Source of the DNA: an uncultured Treponema sp.
GTDB lineage: Bacteria; Spirochaetota; Spirochaetia; Treponematales; Treponemataceae
DNA: 64,000 nucleotides
Assembly (NCBI GenBank): GCA_947177175.1
Contig: CAMWTK010000001.1
Span: forward strand, 1-64,000
Direction: 5' to 3'
In this document: piece after piece, positions 9,009 through 47,174 of the stretch
How the letters are laid out: each line of letters opens with the position of its first letter
Numbering within the stretch: the first letter of the stretch is position 1
Made by a program: the position numbers and the translations under genes
The notes under the pieces: generated by a model
What the model was told of the DNA's origin: nothing
Databases searched by the model: none
Seen by the model: only the letters and a program-made list of their open reading frames with translations

Positions 9009-9716
9009 TCACAATTTGATTGTTTTTATTAAATTTGACCAATCCCTATACGTCATGCATGGATACTTATCTTGATAGAAATTTTGAACAAGTTGAATTG
9101 CCTCCAAGGTATGAAGATTTCCGCCGACTAATAAGGGAGTTAACTTTCTCAATAATTCAACGTCGGTAATTTTATATAATTTATCATTAGTAGTAAGCAT
9201 TTTTGCACTGTTTTTGTTTTCAGAAAGAATTATAGGTATGCCGAAAAATATATCAATCTGCTCAAAAAACTTAACGACAGATTTTCTTTTGAATAAAACT
9301 ACCTTATCGCCATTTCTGAGATTCTTTTGCAAAAAAACATTTTCTAGCACATGGTTCTGCCAACTCTGACGCGAATAAAACGAGACGTTATCCTGCACAT
9401 TTAGCCTTTGTTTCGTAGTATAGTAATTCCAACAGACATACACATCGTTTTCTGCATCATATCCCAAAAACACAAAGGGAATGTCAGATTGCTTTATAAA
9501 ATCAAATTCTTCTCGCAGTGGCAGTTGTGCTCTGTTAATATCGGGTCTGTCTTTAAAATATGCCGATGAAATATTTTTTATATATATGAAATACTCTTTC
9601 TCTGCAAAAGAAATCTTGAAGGGCTGACATCCTGTTATGAAAGAAAAATCTTTTGAAGCGTTCATTTCATGCATAAACAGCGAAAGCAATTTATTTCCGC
9701 TAATCTTTCTGTTCAT
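9009..9716 (-). CDS. Unknown fifth component of the Z1/MORC defence operon
   Basis: A 235-aa, AT-rich gene whose start directly abuts the stop of the PD-(D/E)XK gene. I do not recognise a named domain. The N-terminal half is beta-rich, with FIYIKNISSAYFKDRPDINR, FVFLGYDAENDVYVCWNYYT and NVSFYSRQSWQ, and looks like a compact DNA- or ligand-binding fold; the C-terminal half has a helical ending (YPCMTYRDWSNLIKTIKL). Position as the last gene of a tight restriction-type operon suggests a specificity, sensor or inhibitor role, which is inference. No catalytic motif of known nucleases is evident. Confidence 0.75.
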   Translation of the reverse strand: MNRKISGNKLLSLFMHEMNASKDFSFITGCQPFKISFAEKEYFIYIKNISSAYFKDRPDINRAQLPLREEFDFIKQSDIPFVFLGYDAENDVYVCWNYYTTKQRLNVQDNVSFYSRQSWQNHVLENVFLQKNLRNGDKVVLFKRKSVVKFFEQIDIFFGIPIILSENKNSAKMLTTNDKLYKITDVELLRKLTPLLVGGNLHTLEAIQLVQNFYQDKYPCMTYRDWSNLIKTIKL

Positions 9717-10697
9717 TTACAGACTCCTGAACAAATTGCTCTTGCTCGATTCTAATGCTTCCCTCGGAATAGAAGATACGTTTGCCAAGCAGCATGAGAA
9801 TTTCACATCCGAAACTTCGGGCGGAACATCCGTATCTTTTATTTTGGGAATCGCTCTTGAATCAAAAAAGCGAAGCGTGTCTGCCGCCGCCTGATAATCA
9901 TAACAAAAATCAAATGCGTTTTCCAAATCGCTTCCCAAAGCCTTGAAAACTATGGAATCAAAGACAGTTTGAATCTGTATATCAGATATTCGAGAGAAAA
10001 TCATTGAACGCAAATCACTGATATTTTTGCCAATTCCAGTCTGAGTCGTAAATATGGAGGCAACAATAAGTCCTGAATGTTCATTCTGATTTAGCTGTTC
10101 CAAAGAAAAGGTATGGATTCTTTCCTTTTTGCCAGTGCTTTTTACTTCAATCTTGTCAGTTCCATCATTGAAATCAAACTTGCTCTCAGGACTGCAATGC
10201 CATGCCTTTATCATATATTCAGGATTCTGTGATTGCGAGATTAGGAACATTTCCGCCCATAATCCTTGAACCGTTTTTTCCGTGGGTTTTGACGCATGAC
10301 TGAACAATGCGATAATTTTATCTATTTCTTTACTTATTTGCTTTAGGGAGGGATTTTTAGGAATGTTTTGCAACAACAAATATATGACTTCAAGAAAATA
10401 GTTCTGAAAATCATAACTTTCCGAATTAAGCATTATGATGGAACACACCTTCAAGGATTCTTCGTTATCATCTCCAATCAACTTGCAATTCTTGTTAAAC
10501 AAGATAGAAATAAATTTCAGTTTCAAGTCTGCGACAACATTCTCAAATTTACAGTCAATCAGAAACATAGGCGTTCTATTTTCCGAAATACCCAAAAGAA
10601 ATTTTTTAGAGAGGCACAATTCTGTAACCGGCGTAAAGTTGTTTTTCAAAGAATGTCTATTTTGTAACTCGGAATACAGTTCGCAGATTTTATCCAT
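9717..10697 (-). CDS. PD-(D/E)XK-type nuclease protein of Z1 systems
   Basis: A 326-aa protein with a restriction-endonuclease-like core in its middle. The helix GLWAEMFLIS provides the leading Glu, and KFDFNDGTDKIEVKST carries the D...(E)xK catalytic pair, at roughly residues 145-190. This matches the PD-(D/E)XK motif proteins repeatedly found next to Z1-domain and MORC-type ATPase genes. It most likely supplies the DNA-cutting activity of the operon. The N- and C-terminal parts are unassigned. Seven bases separate it from the Z1 gene; the next gene follows with no gap. Confidence 0.8.
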   Translation of the reverse strand: MDKICELYSELQNRHSLKNNFTPVTELCLSKKFLLGISENRTPMFLIDCKFENVVADLKLKFISILFNKNCKLIGDDNEESLKVCSIIMLNSESYDFQNYFLEVIYLLLQNIPKNPSLKQISKEIDKIIALFSHASKPTEKTVQGLWAEMFLISQSQNPEYMIKAWHCSPESKFDFNDGTDKIEVKSTGKKERIHTFSLEQLNQNEHSGLIVASIFTTQTGIGKNISDLRSMIFSRISDIQIQTVFDSIVFKALGSDLENAFDFCYDYQAAADTLRFFDSRAIPKIKDTDVPPEVSDVKFSCCLANVSSIPREALESSKSNLFRSL

Positions 10698-10704
10698 AAG
10701 TAAA

Positions 10705-12903
10705 CTATCCTACATAATTAACCGCAAAATCGTCAGGATAATAAATTGCCAGCGTATAAGCCGTTTTTCCTTTCCATTTTTTGGATTCACAACTCAACTC
10801 TATATTATGTATCTGAATGCAAATTGAGTCTTCAAAACAAATTTTCATATCACCGGGATAGACATTTTTTCCGCTCGGCGAATGTCCGGAAAACAAATAT
10901 GTGCTTAACCTTTCCGTGTTTGTGTCAAATGCTCGTTTTCTCGGTTCGCTTTTGTAAGCCATTTGAATTATATACGCAAATTTCAACGGATTCCCGTTTT
11001 CCAATGAAGAAAGATATTTTAAATATCGCACTGTAGCCTGTTTGCGTGCGGCATCGGGCATGTTCTGACATCTAAAATCAGAAAGAAACTGAATTACTTC
11101 GTCAATATCCAATTTCAAGTAACGATGGTCTCTGTCGTCTGTGCCGAATTTTTTATATAATTTGAAATCGTCTTCATGTTTAGAAAAAAGAGTATCAACT
11201 GTGTTTTTATTCCCTTCAATACTGTTTGTCTGAAAAGCATTCATCTTTCTCCAACCGTTCAGTTTGTTGATGACGACTTCCTTTGTAAGAATATTCCTGC
11301 GCGTCGCATTTAGTGATGGACTTGTCAAAAGCAAGTGCTCCACATTCTCAAGACTGTCATTTCCTTTAAGCCATTTGCGCATTTCTTCTTCATGGTCAAC
11401 ATATTCCGTATACTCCTGCCGCACATCGCGCGGCAAAAACACCCTGCATGACAAAAGGTATTTTTGCTTGTAGCCAAAGAATCGACACCGCTGCTGAATA
11501 GTGTCGGCATTTGATTTTCCGATTGTGTATCGTGGCATATATGTGGTAGCAAGATTCTCAACTGTAAAACCTCGGTTCAGCATATCTGCACCAACAAGAA
11601 TATGAGAAGAATAATCATTCCATGGAATTTCTTTGTTTTCCCCATTTTTCTTGTTTCTGCTTATGATCAGCTCAATATTTGTGTCTTTTATTATATCTGG
11701 AATAAAAGACGCGATGTCAGAAAAAACTGGATATTCTATATTTTTCGCTTTGTATTCTTGTATTGCCATTGGATATGTGTTTTCAAAATCTGAGAGTAAC
11801 TCTCTGAAAGCAATGTCATTCTTATCCAAATTAAAAGTAGTTATCCAGCCGTTTATTATATTTGACACCCAATTATGAAATTTCTCGCTTGCATCCTGTT
11901 CTTTGTCTGCATGAACCATCATTGAAAGAAATTTCTCATCCTCTTTGTATTGCACGACAACAGCAACTGAAAGAATATGAAGTTGCAGCGCGGTTATAAG
12001 GGTTTTTGGTGGCTGTGAAAGATTATTGCGCTTTGAATGATATGTTTCTTCTTTTGGGATTTCAATTATAAGACCAGGATTTTCCTTAAAAAATGTTTTT
12101 CCGCCTGTGTATGATTTTCCGGGCGTTAAGACAGTATGGTGTTTCGGAGAGAGCAAATCCATTATACTGATAAGGAGAGGTCCTTGCGGAGTCGCTGTAT
12201 ACTGGATATAAGAATGGTTTGGCAAAGAACTTCTTAATTCTGTGATTCGTCTATAAGTTGTTGTATATTCATCATCTTCCCACTCTTCGGACTTGCTGTT
12301 TTTGTACGCATATCCGTTAAGGCTTGCCTGGTCTGCCTCATCATCAATTATCATTACGCCGTCATTTTTTAATACATTTTTCATTCTTGAAGTACCGAAC
12401 ATATCTGAGATGTCTTTGATATGTTGATGCTGTTTTAAAACCGTTATTAAAACTGTAGGATTGGTGCTCATCTGTAACTCATTTGCAATTCTGTCCAAAT
12501 CCTCTAACTTTGGATTCTGGTGAAGTTTATACCACTTACGATTATTTCCTTCGTTTATCAGGTCTTTTCTTAGGCGCTTTGTTGTTTGTTCGAGGAGATT
12601 ATTTTTGTTTCCCGCAAAATAAATGATGATTCTGTAACCGCTGTCGCTCGCAAGTGCTGAAAGAGCGGTAAAAGACATTGTTTTTCCGCTCTGAACATAA
12701 CCAACAACAAGACTGGTAACAGATTGCGGTTTACCTGATTTTGGATCTGCACAATTTGATAGAATAGAAATGGTTTCGTTTTTGGAAGTCTCCAATTCTT
12801 CCGCAGAAAGTTTAGTGAAACGGCTGTATAATTCAGTTGCTCTTTCACCAAAAACAGGCGTGAAAGAATCTGGCTTGTTTTCTTTTTGAATCCGCACTTC
12901 CAT
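10705..12903 (-). CDS. Z1-domain SF2 helicase-like ATPase
   Basis: A 732-aa superfamily II-type NTPase. Walker A is GYVQSGKT near residue 68, the DEAD-like Walker B is IIDDEAD near residue 190, and motif III-like SYIQYTATPQ follows. The C-terminal RecA-like domain carries the Z1 signature GADMLNRGFTVENLATTYMPR and the arginine-finger region DTIQQRCRFFGYK. In the analysis of prokaryotic MORC ATPases by Iyer, Abhiman and Aravind, Z1 proteins are the motor partners of MORC ATPases, methylases and PD-(D/E)XK nucleases in restriction-like operons. Two bases separate it from the GHKL gene. Confidence 0.88.
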   Translation of the reverse strand: MEVRIQKENKPDSFTPVFGERATELYSRFTKLSAEELETSKNETISILSNCADPKSGKPQSVTSLVVGYVQSGKTMSFTALSALASDSGYRIIIYFAGNKNNLLEQTTKRLRKDLINEGNNRKWYKLHQNPKLEDLDRIANELQMSTNPTVLITVLKQHQHIKDISDMFGTSRMKNVLKNDGVMIIDDEADQASLNGYAYKNSKSEEWEDDEYTTTYRRITELRSSLPNHSYIQYTATPQGPLLISIMDLLSPKHHTVLTPGKSYTGGKTFFKENPGLIIEIPKEETYHSKRNNLSQPPKTLITALQLHILSVAVVVQYKEDEKFLSMMVHADKEQDASEKFHNWVSNIINGWITTFNLDKNDIAFRELLSDFENTYPMAIQEYKAKNIEYPVFSDIASFIPDIIKDTNIELIISRNKKNGENKEIPWNDYSSHILVGADMLNRGFTVENLATTYMPRYTIGKSNADTIQQRCRFFGYKQKYLLSCRVFLPRDVRQEYTEYVDHEEEMRKWLKGNDSLENVEHLLLTSPSLNATRRNILTKEVVINKLNGWRKMNAFQTNSIEGNKNTVDTLFSKHEDDFKLYKKFGTDDRDHRYLKLDIDEVIQFLSDFRCQNMPDAARKQATVRYLKYLSSLENGNPLKFAYIIQMAYKSEPRKRAFDTNTERLSTYLFSGHSPSGKNVYPGDMKICFEDSICIQIHNIELSCESKKWKGKTAYTLAIYYPDDFAVNYVG

Positions 12904-12905
12904 GG

Positions 12906-14420
12906 TCAGTCATTCTCCAAAATATACTGATTGAACAAATTCCTGACATTTCCCACATTAGTAGTTCCGCTATCAGGCGCTTTTATCTCTGCTTTTGCAA
13001 AAGCCATAAGAATTCTTATGACAGGCTCATAGTCTTTGTCTTTCTTAAACTGCGGATAACAATCAAAAAAAGAATGATTTAAGTTAATCTTACATACAAA
13101 CACATCTTCTTCTTTCCGCACAGAATACAAGGCCATGCTTTCTGTATCGGTAATCAGCTCATATTTTAATTCACATTCTTTGCTTCCAATTAAAATAGGT
13201 TCTGTATATGTTTCCGCAGGTTTTGAATTATTGATTAACTCCTCGTTCTTTTTTATTGCGGCAACATTATTGATTTTCAATTCTTCCTGCTCAATTTTTT
13301 CCTTTTTGAACAAGGCGGAGGTATTTTTCTTCTCAAAGGTTTCTTTTATCTCCTGCGCTATCTCTTCTTTTTTCACACGGCTTCGCTGTCGATACCCGTC
13401 TGCCTGCAAAAAGATATTTGGTTCATTTTTTCTTATTTCATCGCGGATATCTTCAAGAAGTGCCTGCAAATCATCTTCAGCTTTGAAACTGTTTTTATTG
13501 AATGTAACCTCAAATCCATCCAATTCAAGTTCGCCAAACAAGCGTTTATATTTAAATGTACCGACAGATCCAAAAATGCAGGTTGGAAAATAATGCTCGT
13601 CACCACCCCCTACAATAACACGTCCACGTCGGAGCAAGACAAGTCCGTTCGCGCCCTGTTGAATCTCATCTAAAATGGCGATAAAACCGTTTGCCTTGTA
13701 TTTCCCCGCATTAAAATGAATTTCTTTTTTCCATAAGATACTTCCGCCGTCAGGGTTTTTATAAAATGGCGCGTTTAATATTTTATAATTCGGAGCAGTA
13801 AGTTTTTCTTCATTCACAAAAATTTCAATTTCATCATTTCGGAGATAATAACGATAGATACTCGACAAATGTTTTTTCACCCTTTCCAAAGAATTTGGCT
13901 TAGGTGCATTTTTTGAGAGATTTGTAAGTATAATTTTTGTATAATGCTCCTTTTGAGATTTTGTCTTTTCAGTTATAGCCAGCACCTCTTTTTCTTCTTC
14001 AACGACTTTGTTCAAATCAAACGAAAGAATTCTTTCCTTGCTTTCACCTAGGGCTTTTGTCGTTATTGTCCAATTATCGGCAAGCCAAACGGAGGCCGTC
14101 TTCATACCCATTCCGTACTCATTAAGTCCCGCCCTGTTCTCGGGAATATTCGCCGGCTCAAATGCGCGCAAATAATTTTTCTCGTTTATGCCAGCCGCAT
14201 TATCAACTATGGTCAGAGTTTTCTGTTCCCAGTCCATTGTTATTCGGATGCAAAGTTTGTAATCAGGCTCATAAGATTGTAAGAGATTTTTATTATCAAA
14301 ATAATTCTGAACTGCATTATCAACATATTCGCCAAGCGTATTCGAAAGCGTATTGGACAAATCCCTGAATGTGGTGTATACATTCGGTTTCAACGCGATT
14401 GAAACTTGTTTTATTTCCAT
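12906..14420 (-). CDS. MORC-type GHKL ATPase of a restriction system
   Basis: A 504-aa protein with an N-terminal GHKL (Hsp90/MutL-type) ATP-binding domain. The N-box is LGEYVDNAVQ near residue 30, the G1 box is IVDNAAGI near 72 and the G2 box is NEYGMGMKTAS near 100. An S5-like second domain follows, then a charged coiled-coil region (about 340-400) and a small C-terminal domain. This is the layout of bacterial MORC proteins, thought to clamp or remodel DNA in an ATP-dependent way. Start and stop overlap the methyltransferase stop by one base (TAATG), so the genes are translationally coupled. Confidence 0.88.
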   Translation of the reverse strand: MEIKQVSIALKPNVYTTFRDLSNTLSNTLGEYVDNAVQNYFDNKNLLQSYEPDYKLCIRITMDWEQKTLTIVDNAAGINEKNYLRAFEPANIPENRAGLNEYGMGMKTASVWLADNWTITTKALGESKERILSFDLNKVVEEEKEVLAITEKTKSQKEHYTKIILTNLSKNAPKPNSLERVKKHLSSIYRYYLRNDEIEIFVNEEKLTAPNYKILNAPFYKNPDGGSILWKKEIHFNAGKYKANGFIAILDEIQQGANGLVLLRRGRVIVGGGDEHYFPTCIFGSVGTFKYKRLFGELELDGFEVTFNKNSFKAEDDLQALLEDIRDEIRKNEPNIFLQADGYRQRSRVKKEEIAQEIKETFEKKNTSALFKKEKIEQEELKINNVAAIKKNEELINNSKPAETYTEPILIGSKECELKYELITDTESMALYSVRKEEDVFVCKINLNHSFFDCYPQFKKDKDYEPVIRILMAFAKAEIKAPDSGTTNVGNVRNLFNQYILEND

Positions 14421-15766
14421 TACTCTATCTCCAGCAGTCTTTCCGCGATTCGTCTTACGACTTCGACATTAATCGCGTTTCCAAAAGCCCGAAACGCTTC
14501 CGCCACAGTATCAGGATAGTACTCCAAATCACCCATGCATTGTAACTTAGCAGCCTCTTTGCTTGTCATGTATCGTCCTTTTTCACCATTAGGAGTTTCT
14601 ACCCACGGGAATATTGGAATTTGGGTTGTTGTTAATACAAGAGCGGGAGAGTATGTCGGCAATTTTACGCGAATCCCAGAAGGCCTGAATTGTACTATTT
14701 TGTCATACAATGTATGTTTTACCCCCTTGTCATGACCGCAATTCCATTCAAATTTTTGGTGGCTGTTTTTGAAGCCATGTTGCTTCAACTTCTCCAGCCA
14801 TGGATCTAATATCTGCTTATGTGCCTGATAAAATTCCCTGTTCCACTTTATGAAATTTTTTTTCCAGTCAGGAAAATTATGATTTTTTTCAGTTTTATTA
14901 GTTTGCGCATATATTGGAAGGCAACCAAGCAAATCATCCTTCGAATTTCCTTGAACATGACAACCAAATTTTCCTTTTTTCCCTTCAAGTGATTTTGTAT
15001 GCTGATAGAATGGCGCGACAGTCTCATACTTATAATCCGCCCCCCATTCCATAGCCCATACAGGAAAAGTTGGAATGGGAATGTCGTGCGCTGTCAATAA
15101 ATCAAGAAATTCTTGCCATACTTGCATATGTATTCTCGTTTGAGGTTTCAATGTCATATAAACGGTATCATTTTTGTCTATAATATCTTCAATACTACAT
15201 TTTGTACTTTTTTTATACGGGGGAAAAGAAAAGCCCCTCAGCCCACCTTTATCTATCAGCCGCCCTACAATATAAATTCTTGTACGGTGCTGTGGAATTC
15301 CAAAATAATGAGGAGATATAATTTCATCACGTATATCATACAGTTCTGAAAGTTGTGCTGAAATAACTTTATAGGTATTTCCCCCATCGTGTGATTTTAA
15401 ATTGGGAACATTTTCAATGAAAACATACTCAGGCTTACATTTTTTCAATATTTCCATAATTTTATAAAACAGGTTTCCTCTTTCTTTATCATCATCGAAT
15501 CCCTGCTGTTTCCCTGCCTTTGAAAACGGCTGGCAGGGAAACCCCGCACATAAAACCTGCGGCTGATATGGCAATATATCTTTTTCTATGTCTACTTTAT
15601 TTATATCGCCGGCACATTTCATTTTAAAATTTTTCTCATAGAATTGTTGCAGTTCCGGTTTTATTTCGCTTGCAAACACACATCTGCCGCCAAGCTTTTT
15701 CATTGCAAGATGAAAACCGCCTATTCCAGCAAATAAGTCTATAAATGTAAAAGATTTATCTCCCAT
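14420..15766 (-). CDS. DNA (cytosine-5) methyltransferase
   Basis: A 448-aa C5 methyltransferase. It shows motif I DLFAGIGGFHLAMKK, catalytic motif IV GFPCQPFSKAG (Cys near residue 79), motif VI ENVPNL, motif VIII QHRTRIY, a target-recognition region between about residues 190 and 370, and motifs IX/X ending in GNAINVEVVRRIAERL. It would mark host DNA and protect it from the nuclease encoded downstream. It is the promoter-proximal gene of the five-gene operon, so the protective activity would be made first. Base composition is far more AT-rich than in flanking genes, a sign of horizontal transfer. The recognition sequence cannot be read. Confidence 0.93.
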   Translation of the reverse strand: MGDKSFTFIDLFAGIGGFHLAMKKLGGRCVFASEIKPELQQFYEKNFKMKCAGDINKVDIEKDILPYQPQVLCAGFPCQPFSKAGKQQGFDDDKERGNLFYKIMEILKKCKPEYVFIENVPNLKSHDGGNTYKVISAQLSELYDIRDEIISPHYFGIPQHRTRIYIVGRLIDKGGLRGFSFPPYKKSTKCSIEDIIDKNDTVYMTLKPQTRIHMQVWQEFLDLLTAHDIPIPTFPVWAMEWGADYKYETVAPFYQHTKSLEGKKGKFGCHVQGNSKDDLLGCLPIYAQTNKTEKNHNFPDWKKNFIKWNREFYQAHKQILDPWLEKLKQHGFKNSHQKFEWNCGHDKGVKHTLYDKIVQFRPSGIRVKLPTYSPALVLTTTQIPIFPWVETPNGEKGRYMTSKEAAKLQCMGDLEYYPDTVAEAFRAFGNAINVEVVRRIAERLLEIE

Positions 15767-15786: not shown

Positions 15787-15816
15787 ATTATACCATAGGA
15801 CTATCCTTCCTGTAAA
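15787..15816 (-). promoter_or_regulatory. Promoter of the defence operon
   Basis: Minus-strand TTTACA, an 18-bp spacer, TATAAT. The predicted start is near 15780, leaving a 14-base leader before the methyltransferase ATG, which lacks a clear ribosome site. The 45-bp inverted-repeat array begins about 20 bp upstream, in position to bind a regulator. Confidence 0.6.
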
Positions 15817-15837: not shown

Positions 15838-16011
15838 CCATCAAGCCCCCTGCGTCCGTCCGTCTTGACGGACGCGCCCATTTATCAAGACAACGGTTTC
15901 CGTTTGTCTTGATGAACGAACCATATCCATCAAGATGAATGCATCCTGTTTGTCTTGATGAACATACCGCGTTTATCAAGACAAATGTATCTATTTTATC
16001 AAGATAAAAGT
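15838..16011. repeat. 45-bp tandem array of TTATCAAGACAA / TTGTCTTGAT inverted repeats
   Basis: ATCAAG recurs at about 15840, 15884, 15929 and 15975, and its complement (CTTGAT or the variant CTTGAC) at about 15863, 15908 and 15954. Each 44-46 bp unit is therefore an inverted repeat. The best is ATCAAGACAACGG with CCGTTTGTCTTGAT. The last half-site pair is TTTATCAAGACAA and TTTTATCAAGATAA, in direct orientation. GTTTGTCTTGATGAAC occurs twice. The array separates the AT-rich defence operon from the HU gene's terminator. Confidence 0.8.
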
Positions 16012-16172: not shown

Positions 16173-16658
16173 CTACGCGCTTTCGGCGGAATTTCCGGGG
16201 AAGTCCGCCGGGACTTCGGACGGCACGGGCACTTCTTCGCCGCTGTCGTCGGTCAAGTACCGTGCGTCCAGCTTGACATACGCGGGTTTTTCAAGCTTGC
16301 GCTTGAGCATGATGTCGGGCGTGAACATCACTCGCACCCCCTCAATGTCGTTAGCGGTCACTTCGGTCGCCCGCTCATAGCCGCTGCACTGGGGATTAAC
16401 TTTCAGCCCGACCTTGAAGATGCCGAACGAGTTGAGCCGCACTTTGTAGCCGAGCAGCAGATACTTGGGCAACGTCCGAAGCAGGCTGCTGATAACGCCC
16501 AGCACCTCCGTCGGGGTGAGCGTGGTGTTTTCGGAAATCTCTTCCGCCAGCTGGTGTATGTCAATCTCTGAGATATATGCCGGGGCAGGATAGAACTTGC
16601 CTTCGGCATCCATGTCGCGCGGATTCAACCGCTTCCTAGAAACAAATGGGATTGCCAT
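16173..16658 (-). CDS. HU-family DNA-binding protein with C-terminal extension
   Basis: A 161-aa protein of the longer HU-related type common in Bacteroidetes and some spirochaetes. The core runs from about residue 25 to 125 with ELAEEIS-like helices, LNSFGIFKVGLKVNP (the beta-arm region) and a divergent arm tip rather than the classical RNPxTG. The C-terminal 35 residues are acidic and Pro-rich (SGEEVPVPSEVPADFPGNS). A strong GGAAGGAGG precedes the ATG. A promoter at 16815-16843 predicts a long leader of about 150 bases. Confidence 0.85.
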   Translation of the reverse strand: MAIPFVSRKRLNPRDMDAEGKFYPAPAYISEIDIHQLAEEISENTTLTPTEVLGVISSLLRTLPKYLLLGYKVRLNSFGIFKVGLKVNPQCSGYERATEVTANDIEGVRVMFTPDIMLKRKLEKPAYVKLDARYLTDDSGEEVPVPSEVPADFPGNSAESA

Positions 16659-16920: not shown

Positions 16921-16949
16921 ATGACTTTTTCTGCGATATGCGGTATAGT
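16921..16949 (+). promoter_or_regulatory. xre promoter, predicted near-leaderless start
   Basis: ATGACT, 17-bp spacer, TATAGT. The predicted +1 at 16956 lies one base before the ATG at 16957. No convincing ribosome site is present. Confidence 0.55.
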
Positions 16950-16956
16950 AAGAGCC

Positions 16957-17277
16957 ATGAACGATATGAGACCGACCATAAAAGAAATTGCCCGGAACGT
17001 TGCGGACAGGCGGAAAGCACTCGGCCTAACGCAGGCACAGATTGCTGAGCGGCTGCAAAAAAGCCGCGCCTATGTCATCGCGCTAGAGGCCGGGGACGTG
17101 CAGCCGACCGTCTCAGTCATCTACGAGCTTGCGGAGATTTTCGCTTGCACCGCGCACGACCTGATGCCCCCGAAGCCGCTTGACGAAGAGCGACCTGAAA
17201 TGCGCGGCAGCCGCGTCAGCGCTGAGACGGAAGATGCGGTTGCCCGGATGCTCAAGGAGGAACGCGATGCATGGTGA
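16957..17277 (+). CDS. Xre-family helix-turn-helix regulator
   Basis: A 106-aa protein starting MNDMRPTIKEIARNV. A Cro/C1-type HTH occupies about residues 10-65: RRKALGLTQAQIAERLQKSRAYVIALEAGDVQPTVSVIYELAEIF. The last 40 residues are charged. The first ATG in the ORF track (16921) lies in the -35 region of the predicted promoter and is not used here. The 3' end overlaps the ImmA-like gene by 11 bases, with that gene's AAGGAGG inside this coding region. Such Xre-ImmA pairs control mobile elements and stress responses; the Xre member is the repressor. Confidence 0.85.
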   Translation: MNDMRPTIKEIARNVADRRKALGLTQAQIAERLQKSRAYVIALEAGDVQPTVSVIYELAEIFACTAHDLMPPKPLDEERPEMRGSRVSAETEDAVARMLKEERDAW

Positions 17278-17818
17278 GACACGGAATTATGAGACGCAAG
17301 TTGCCAAAGACATCCTGAACGAATTCGGTATCACGACTAGGGATAAACTGCCGGTCGATATGGACGCAATCCTTACGGCAAAGGGCTTTACCGTGAGCGA
17401 GCGCAATCTTCCCGAAGACCTCGCCGCCGTCCTTGACACGCGCACCGCAGGAAAACCGATCCTGCTGGTGGACAGGCATTTGGATCTCCCCAAAAAACGC
17501 TTCGTGAAAGCATGCGAGCTGGGGCATTTCCTGTTGGACGGAGACTTCACGGGCGTACGGATGGACAAAAAGGCATTTTTCTCGCAAGCCCTGAGCGGCC
17601 TGCCGGCAGACGAATCCGAGCGCAGGGCAAACCGTTTTGCCTATGCCCTGCTCATGCCAAAAAAAATCCTCGAAGAGCAGGCGCAGAAAAACAACGGCAA
17701 AAGCGACGACGATTTTGCAAGCACGCTCGCGGCCGTTTTCGGCGTGAGCGTGCTTGCGGTCGCCGTCGGCTTTGTTATCTCCGCGCTGCTGAGTGACAAC
17801 AAAGGCAAGAAAAAATAG
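17267..17818 (+). CDS. ImmA/IrrE-like protein with altered HExxH motif
   Basis: A 183-aa protein of the ImmA/IrrE type, whose members are zinc peptidases that cleave the partner Xre repressor. The fold is recognisable: ETQVAKDILNEFGI, ILLVDRHLDLPKKRFVKACELGHFLL and ERRANRFAYALLMPK. The expected HELGH reads CELGH, so the first zinc-ligand His is Cys, while Glu and the second His remain, as does the later Glu of ERRANRFA. The C-terminus (LAAVFGVSVLAVAVGFVISALLS) is hydrophobic enough for a membrane helix, then KGKKK. A clear AAGGAGG lies six bases before the ATG at 17267. It converges on the activase gene (11-bp gap). Confidence 0.8.
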   Translation: MHGETRNYETQVAKDILNEFGITTRDKLPVDMDAILTAKGFTVSERNLPEDLAAVLDTRTAGKPILLVDRHLDLPKKRFVKACELGHFLLDGDFTGVRMDKKAFFSQALSGLPADESERRANRFAYALLMPKKILEEQAQKNNGKSDDDFASTLAAVFGVSVLAVAVGFVISALLSDNKGKKK

Positions 17819-45612: not shown

Positions 45613-47174
45613 TGAAACCGGCAGCCCCACTCGCAATCCTTGCCTGCCTGTTTGCGGCGCAGGCAGAGACATACCGCATAACCGATGTCGCGTATGACAT
45701 CACGGGAAAGACAAAGGAATATGCCATCCAGAATGCCGTTGATATCGACACGACGCGCGTGTTCAATTCTGCCGACGAGCTGGACGTATACGTGCAGGAC
45801 TTGCAGCAGCAGTTCAACAACCAGCGGGAATTTGAATCCGCCGCGGTCGAGACCATATACGGCAACACGGACGCCGAGGGCACGACCCCCGTCTCGCTGC
45901 GCGTCGTCACCAAGGATTCCTATAGTTTTATCGCCGTACCATACCCGAAGTACAATTCCAACGACGGCTTCGACTTCAAGCTCAAGATGAAGGACATGAA
46001 TTTCCTGGGCACGATGAGCATCATGGATTTTGACGTGAATTTCGCCATAGAAAATGACGAGGACGATTCCGAAAAGCACGATTATGTCGTCGGACTCAAT
46101 TTCTCCTACGACTATCCGTTCAAGCTCGGTCCGTTCAAGTCATCATGGAACAACAATTTCGGCATCAACTACACGTTCGGCACGACAAAGCCCGAATTCG
46201 ATGTCTCCACGGGGCTGTCCTTTGAGCTGCCGTTCGACCAGTTCTCGGTCTGCCTGTCGCTCACGCAGTCAGCCACCCGCGACGTTGACTACGAAAAATA
46301 CGGCGACGAGTTGTATTTTACGGAAGCCGCCGCGCTCTCGCTGCCGGTCACGCTCGCCAAAATCGACGGCTGGGGCAAAGTGAGCTGGACTCCCTCGCTC
46401 TCGTATGAGTGGAACTGGGACAAAAACGGCATCAACAAAGAAAACGACGATTTGAGCAGTCCGCTGCTTACCGTCGCGCACAGCGTCTCCACGTCCCGCG
46501 TGGACTGGATCGGCAATTTCAGGGACGGGCTTTCCGTGGAGCTGGGGCAGTCAATCGGCTATAATTTTCAGCGCAAAGAATTCGTCCCCAAAGTGTGGGC
46601 GACTTTCATGGGCTACAAGGCGTTTTCCTACGTCGGCGTGACCGGGCGGCTGTACGGATTTGCCATGCACAACGGCGACGAAGAAATCGGCTCGCTCCTG
46701 CGCGGCATCCGGGACAACGTGAAGTACGCCAGCGACGACGCAAAGCTCAGCGCGAAAAAGGCGGCGGAAGTTCCCGCAGCGTTCGTGGCGAACATCGACG
46801 TTCCGATTCATATCGTAACGACGCACTGGAACGACTGGTTCGCCGCGCTGTTCGGCGAGGACGCGGGCATAACGCGCGCGCTCAGGTTCATGCGCTACCT
46901 CGATTTTGAACTGCAGTTCTCGCCGTTCATCGACATCGCGCTCACCAAAAACGCCGCGACCGGACGGCTGTTCAGCATACAGGATGGATTTTATACGGGC
47001 GGACTTGAAGTGCTTGTGTTCCCGGCAAAATGGCGGAGCCTTGAAATCCGCGCGAGCGTCGGCGTTGACGTGGGAAGAAAAATCATCCACAAAATCGTGC
47101 CCAAGTTAATCGACACCAACTGGCGGCATGGCTCTGCCTATGAAATTTCCGTCGGTATCGGACTGCACTACTGA
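45612..47174 (+). CDS. Predicted outer-membrane beta-barrel protein
   Basis: A 520-aa protein with signal peptide MKPAAPLAILACLFAAQAE. Residues about 20-110 (YRITDVAYDITGKTKEYAIQ ... FNNQREFESAAVE) look like a POTRA-type module, and the rest alternates as amphipathic strands ending in an aromatic residue (ISVGIGLHY), as in outer-membrane barrels. This suggests an Omp85-like or porin-like product. It is coupled to the glycan-initiating transferase by a one-base overlap, which hints at a role in exporting or anchoring the glycan. The last seven bases overlap the convergent gene. Confidence 0.7.
   Translation: MKPAAPLAILACLFAAQAETYRITDVAYDITGKTKEYAIQNAVDIDTTRVFNSADELDVYVQDLQQQFNNQREFESAAVETIYGNTDAEGTTPVSLRVVTKDSYSFIAVPYPKYNSNDGFDFKLKMKDMNFLGTMSIMDFDVNFAIENDEDDSEKHDYVVGLNFSYDYPFKLGPFKSSWNNNFGINYTFGTTKPEFDVSTGLSFELPFDQFSVCLSLTQSATRDVDYEKYGDELYFTEAAALSLPVTLAKIDGWGKVSWTPSLSYEWNWDKNGINKENDDLSSPLLTVAHSVSTSRVDWIGNFRDGLSVELGQSIGYNFQRKEFVPKVWATFMGYKAFSYVGVTGRLYGFAMHNGDEEIGSLLRGIRDNVKYASDDAKLSAKKAAEVPAAFVANIDVPIHIVTTHWNDWFAALFGEDAGITRALRFMRYLDFELQFSPFIDIALTKNAATGRLFSIQDGFYTGGLEVLVFPAKWRSLEIRASVGVDVGRKIIHKIVPKLIDTNWRHGSAYEISVGIGLHY

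Follow-up and report, generated by a model that had tools for sequence, protein, structure and literature searches.

Five open reading frames, all on the minus strand, occupy positions 9009–15766 of the window, i.e., the whole 64,000-nt stretch of Treponema DNA analyzed here. In the order of transcription, they encode a Dcm-type C5-cytosine DNA methyltransferase, which is the first gene (14420–15766; 448 aa), a MORC-family GHKL–S5 ATPase (12906–14420; 504 aa), a Z1-domain SF2 ATPase (10705–12903; 732 aa), a DUF4420 protein predicted to be a PD-(D/E)XK nuclease (9717–10697; 326 aa), and, as the last gene, an MTaX1 protein (9009–9716; 235 aa). Their Pfam matches all lie above the curated cut-offs, namely PF00145 (E-value 2.2e-65, together with TIGR00675 above its own cut-off), PF13589 (1.1e-13), PF10593 (4.6e-31), PF14390 (8.8e-32), and PF20296 (5.4e-24). 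These matches confirm the four components named in the initial annotation (Dcm, MORC, Z1, and PD-(D/E)XK), and the fifth gene, which had been left unnamed, is by its sequence MTaX1, with a PF20296 score of 85.3 against a cut-off of 25 bits.

The stop codon of Dcm and the start codon of MORC overlap by 1 nt (TAATG), and the following genes are separated by 2 nt (MORC/Z1), 7 nt (Z1/DUF4420), and 0 nt (DUF4420/MTaX1), so both the coordinates and the gaps of at most seven bases given earlier are correct. This tight packing suggests that the five genes are carried on one mRNA. Moreover, seven consecutive kb have a GC content of 0.35–0.40, against 0.50–0.67 in the remaining intervals of the 64-kb stretch and about 60% in the surroundings, and the GC3 of the five genes is 0.33–0.39, versus a mean of 0.73 (sd 0.08, minimum 0.57) for the 41 other ORFs in the window, in agreement with the earlier description of the block as far more AT-rich than both flanks.

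Catalytic motifs and related systems

Motif alignments over 10–11 loci find the Dcm motifs FAGIGGF, PCQ, ENV, and QxRxR intact. The N box (EYVDNA), G1 (DNAAG), G2 (GMGMK), and signature GLVLLRRGRVI of MORC are conserved in 11 loci, and the Z1 protein contains Walker A (GYVQSGKT), Walker B (DDEAD), TATPQ, and DTIQQRCRFFG motifs, which are conserved over related loci. DUF4420, described by Pfam as putative PD-(D/E)XK, carries an E-D-ExK pattern (E149, D175, and E184-V-K186) that is invariant in 10 loci; its structure model has low confidence across the predicted nuclease core (pLDDT <50 at residues 168–217) and is too weak for fold assignment. A sequence search against solved structures matched none of the MORC, Z1, and DUF4420 proteins. 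The invariance of the nuclease residues speaks against a BREX-like block without cleavage, in which Z1 and MORC would stall or silence unmethylated DNA and the nuclease would be an accessory. Such a block would be in keeping with eukaryotic MORC, which entraps and compacts DNA (PMC8277788), but it is very improbable here.

The set had been assigned at the outset to the systems described by Iyer, Abhiman and Aravind, and the assignment holds motif by motif. In their 2008 paper (PMC2292703), the third type of MORC operon consists of MORC, an SF2(Z1) protein, and a novel restriction endonuclease, with frequent Dcm. The GHKL N, G1, and G2 motifs and the MORC S5 signature GhXhhpXXRhl given there are all found in the MORC protein of the window, the fixed letters of the Z1-helicase motif DThhQXuRhFG are all matched by DTIQQRCRFFG, and the E-D-ExK pattern of the endonuclease corresponds to E149, D175, and E184xK186 of DUF4420. 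However, the operon of the window has no Vsr gene and adds MTaX1 as the last gene, a component not mentioned for this type in the available text, where Figure 2 depicts an 'X1' domain.

CglI and NgoAVII are ATP-dependent restriction-modification systems in which the R-protein triggers the Z1-containing N-protein, each N monomer then hydrolyzing about 175 ATP per second (PMC4267653). The operon shares with them a C5 methylase and a Z1-domain SF2 ATPase, and the Z1 protein encoded beside a Dcm gene in Neisseria gonorrhoeae (L035) is 25% identical to that of the window (2e-23). By contrast, their cutting subunit is PLD-B3, in place of which the window has DUF4420, MTaX1, and MORC, with no PLD or B3 match by Pfam among the five genes.

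The MZA system (mzaABCDE), described as validated (PMC9523054), is closer in its layout, since it has a MORC/MutL-like ATPase, Z1, and DUF4420 in the same order and Dcm is common. It differs in that its Z1 protein is about 925 aa, against about 730 aa in the window, where Z1 belongs to a separate lineage, and in its fifth component after DUF4420, which is AIPR (MzaE) and not MTaX1. For this comparison, DUF4420 loci were surveyed in two phyla and a Z1 tree was built, in which two lineages appear, with weak support for their deep separation at the root as drawn. The long-Z1 group (about 930 aa; support 100/99) has AIPR after DUF4420 in both members tested. When one member was compared with the MZA models, it matched MzaB, MzaC, MzaD, and MzaE, though with scores below the equivalog cut-offs; this lineage is equivalent to the putative MZA-like systems described in PMC9523054. 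The window falls in the short-Z1 lineage, together with operons without MTaX1 (L033, L042, L045, L056, and L058), and the five-gene operons with MTaX1 form a group with support of 99/98. The MORC signature is present in both Z1 lineages.

Membership of MZA is ruled out by the absence of AIPR and by the equivalog scores, which fall far short of the cut-offs for MzaC (126 bits against 1500) and MzaD (29.7 against 420), and the operon is therefore related but distinct. Among defence models, the Z1 protein matches Helicase_II and MzaC, and MORC, DUF4420, and MTaX1 match none; as regards the hallmarks of Druantia type II and DISARM, only the C5 methylase has matches, to the DruM and DrmMII models. 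An MZA-like abortive or damage-sensing defence without site-specific restriction, in which Dcm would be merely protective or regulatory, could account for the shared core (MzaB-, C-, and D-like proteins) and for the frequent presence of Dcm in the surveyed MZA-type loci. It is nevertheless unlikely in view of the missing AIPR, the separate Z1 lineage, and the fusion of MTaX1 elsewhere to restriction-type domains, mostly beside methylases.

The operon is a well-formed representative of a class that was predicted and has been validated in part. The biochemistry of this class had been called thin, yet it is less untested than that implied, given the description of the related MZA as validated (PMC9523054) and the Z1 biochemistry available for CglI/NgoAVII (PMC4267653). 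A literature search found no experiment on the lineage of this operon.

MTaX1 as a putative reader

The new elements of this operon are MTaX1 as the fifth gene and its predicted PD-(D/E)XK-like shape without an active site. The AlphaFold model of MTaX1 (pLDDT 82, built from five sequences) has restriction-endonuclease-like nucleases as its best matches, and nearly all of the 27 top matches share this fold, with Z-scores of 8.0 for the SPARDA nuclease domain, 7.7 for RecU/PrfA, 7.6 for I-Ssp6803I, 7.2 for Hjc, 5.7 for DpnI, and 4.7 for R.SwaI; the top superpositions give rmsd values of 3.2–5.1 over 105–132 residues, and a Z-score near 8 can also arise from common arrangements. Foldseek alone returned no E-value below 0.001 for the model, and a sequence search of the PDB gave marginal matches only, the best being 2aj7 (E-value 0.015). 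The active-site (D/E/Q)xK, or ExK, of the nucleases is absent, as in most of 11 MTaX1 sequences the strand judged by eye to be equivalent to the ExK strand reads YIKN, YIWN, or FIGN. Without this motif, the modeled restriction-endonuclease-like fold of MTaX1 would have no catalytic activity.

Elsewhere, MTaX1 forms the N-terminal domain of larger proteins with HNH (L028 and L031) or GmrSD_N (L029 and L034), and three of these four adjoin a DNA methylase gene. The operon has the MTaX1 domain in common with these proteins, but its MTaX1 stands alone as a polypeptide with a small helical C-terminal part, and a different gene encodes the nuclease. A role in discriminating modified DNA has been proposed for the MTaX1 domain (PMC10853773). 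The modeled fold without an active site and the fusions elsewhere, mostly beside methylases, argue for a recognition module, and MTaX1 is probably a DNA-recognition or discrimination subunit. Such a subunit could also serve a modification-dependent, type IV-like restriction, in which MTaX1 would sense foreign modified bases and tolerate the cognate Dcm mark; the proposal of PMC10853773 and the two fusions to GmrSD_N are consistent with this. However, the methylase is the first gene in every complete MTaX1-bearing MORC–Z1 operon found, an arrangement that fits self-protection and makes type IV-like restriction quite improbable.

MTaX1 is found in the operon at five of the 11 related short-Z1 loci and is missing from it in the other six, which makes it an accessory and excludes it as the general specificity subunit. 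Thus, MTaX1 may be an added reader, and DNA may be recognized by DUF4420 or by its N-terminal part in operons without MTaX1. An attempt to single out the recognition subunit through covariation of domain identities was dropped as uninformative, as region-by-region identities showed no joint change of the methylase TRD with either MTaX1 or DUF4420. We tentatively propose, with somewhat less than even confidence, that the dead restriction-endonuclease fold of MTaX1 is an exchangeable recognition or methylation-reading module placed on HNH, GmrSD-type, or MORC–Z1–DUF4420 machines. The operon would then pair a dead reader with a live nuclease that shares its fold, the two being linked by two distinct ATPases that handle DNA. 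The operon also provides a testable role for MTaX1, which serves as a domain in different restriction systems.

Proposed restriction mechanism

Altogether, the operon is quite probably a horizontally acquired, ATP-dependent, C5-methylation restriction-modification system of the MORC–Z1 type. Dcm, with its intact motifs, would methylate C5 of a host site, and the restriction side would recognize unmethylated incoming sites, most likely through MTaX1 acting alongside the N-terminal part of DUF4420 or in its place. By homology with CglI/NgoAVII, where the R-protein has this role, recognition would trigger the Z1 SF2 ATPase and ATP-driven movement. MORC, following the MORC/MutL precedent, could dimerize on ATP and clamp or loop the DNA, keeping the cutting complex connected to the distant site, and DUF4420 would cut through E149–D175–E184xK186, residues that are present in the protein. 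A nuclease role for the DUF4420 slot fits the occupation of this slot by an HNH gene on a Hymenobacter plasmid (L034:2853–11087), which carries Dcm–MORC–Z1 and, on the other strand, an MTaX1–GmrSD gene; the Z1 and MORC genes of this locus are apparently split. Compact, complete, motif-intact, and accompanied by four relatives for alignment, the operon is well suited to asking how a MORC clamp contributes to DNA restriction, which is of relevance to the eukaryotic MORC silencing proteins as well.

Distribution, horizontal acquisition, and surroundings

The identical five-gene set and order are found in Treponema sp. RGIG4806 (L015) and T. zioleckii (L016), both assigned to the genus of the window, another member of Spirochaetota (L017), and a Bacteroidaceae MAG (L018), whose proteins show 34–50% identity. 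Because the five genes recur in the same order in these four loci and two phyla, the gene order is not due to chance. In the Bacteroidaceae locus, MTaX1 lies on a 958-aa protein (L018:12857–15733) with a long C-terminal extension without a Pfam match. The distribution is patchy, since PF20296 is found in three of the 59 genomes in a sample of relatives, all three from the genus of the window, which contributes 36 of the 59, and in five of 392 genomes in a phylum sample, and PF14390 (DUF4420) in 13 of 325. Dcm–MORC–Z1–DUF4420 is also present on a plasmid of the actinomycete Rathayibacter (L033), and the operon is again AT-rich in moderately GC-rich hosts (L005 and L018). Flanking genes differ among relatives, except for an HU-type gene in common with T. 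zioleckii; the operon of the latter (L004) has an LlaJI-type restriction gene and a PLD–SF2 gene as neighbors, and that of L017 has a Type ISP gene.

This pattern is that of a horizontally moving defence cassette, and horizontal acquisition is well supported. As to the "foreign island" put forward in the initial annotation, it is composition and patchy occurrence that speak for horizontal acquisition; a mobile element bounded by definite ends is not supported, as no integrase lies inside the block and no convincing direct or att-like repeats were found at its flanks. An empty site was not definable, since the relatives looked at never keep the gene order of the window upstream of metG. A 14-nt inverted match (9067–9080 and 15994–16007), the left arm of which is inside the MTaX1 coding sequence, is taken as chance. 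A viral origin was rejected, with no MORC relative in viral contigs and no clear PHROG match except for the methylase.

A likely operon promoter on the minus strand, TTTACA-18-TATAAT with TG before the -10 element (15787–15816), agrees with the consensus at 11 of 12 positions and ends about 20 nt ahead of the Dcm start; promoter-like matches occur at chance level across the whole region, so support for it is modest. Upstream of it, positions 15863–16010 hold a phased array of TCAAGA-core units, spaced about every 22–24 nt and in both orientations, with five exact copies of WTCAAGAYRAA versus 0.21 expected. Six of the 19 copies of ATCAAGA in the window fall within 130 bp, and units of this array are rare elsewhere in the genome. 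It is perhaps an operator array. The sequence ahead of Dcm lacks it in L016 and L018 and has a single copy in L015, so the array does not belong to the conserved parts of the system.

An Rfam search of the window for non-coding RNA gave no match, and a 94-nt tRNA-His with anticodon ATG called by ARAGORN at 46811–46904 is probably a false call, with no Rfam tRNA in the window. Directly upstream of the operon lies an HU-HIG DNA-binding gene (16173–16658), a homologue of which, 73% identical, precedes the operon in T. zioleckii by about 4.6 kb (L016:1647–2060). Beside the island, an HTH_3 regulator and an IrrE/ImmA-like M78 peptidase form a pair with overlapping frames (16921–17818).
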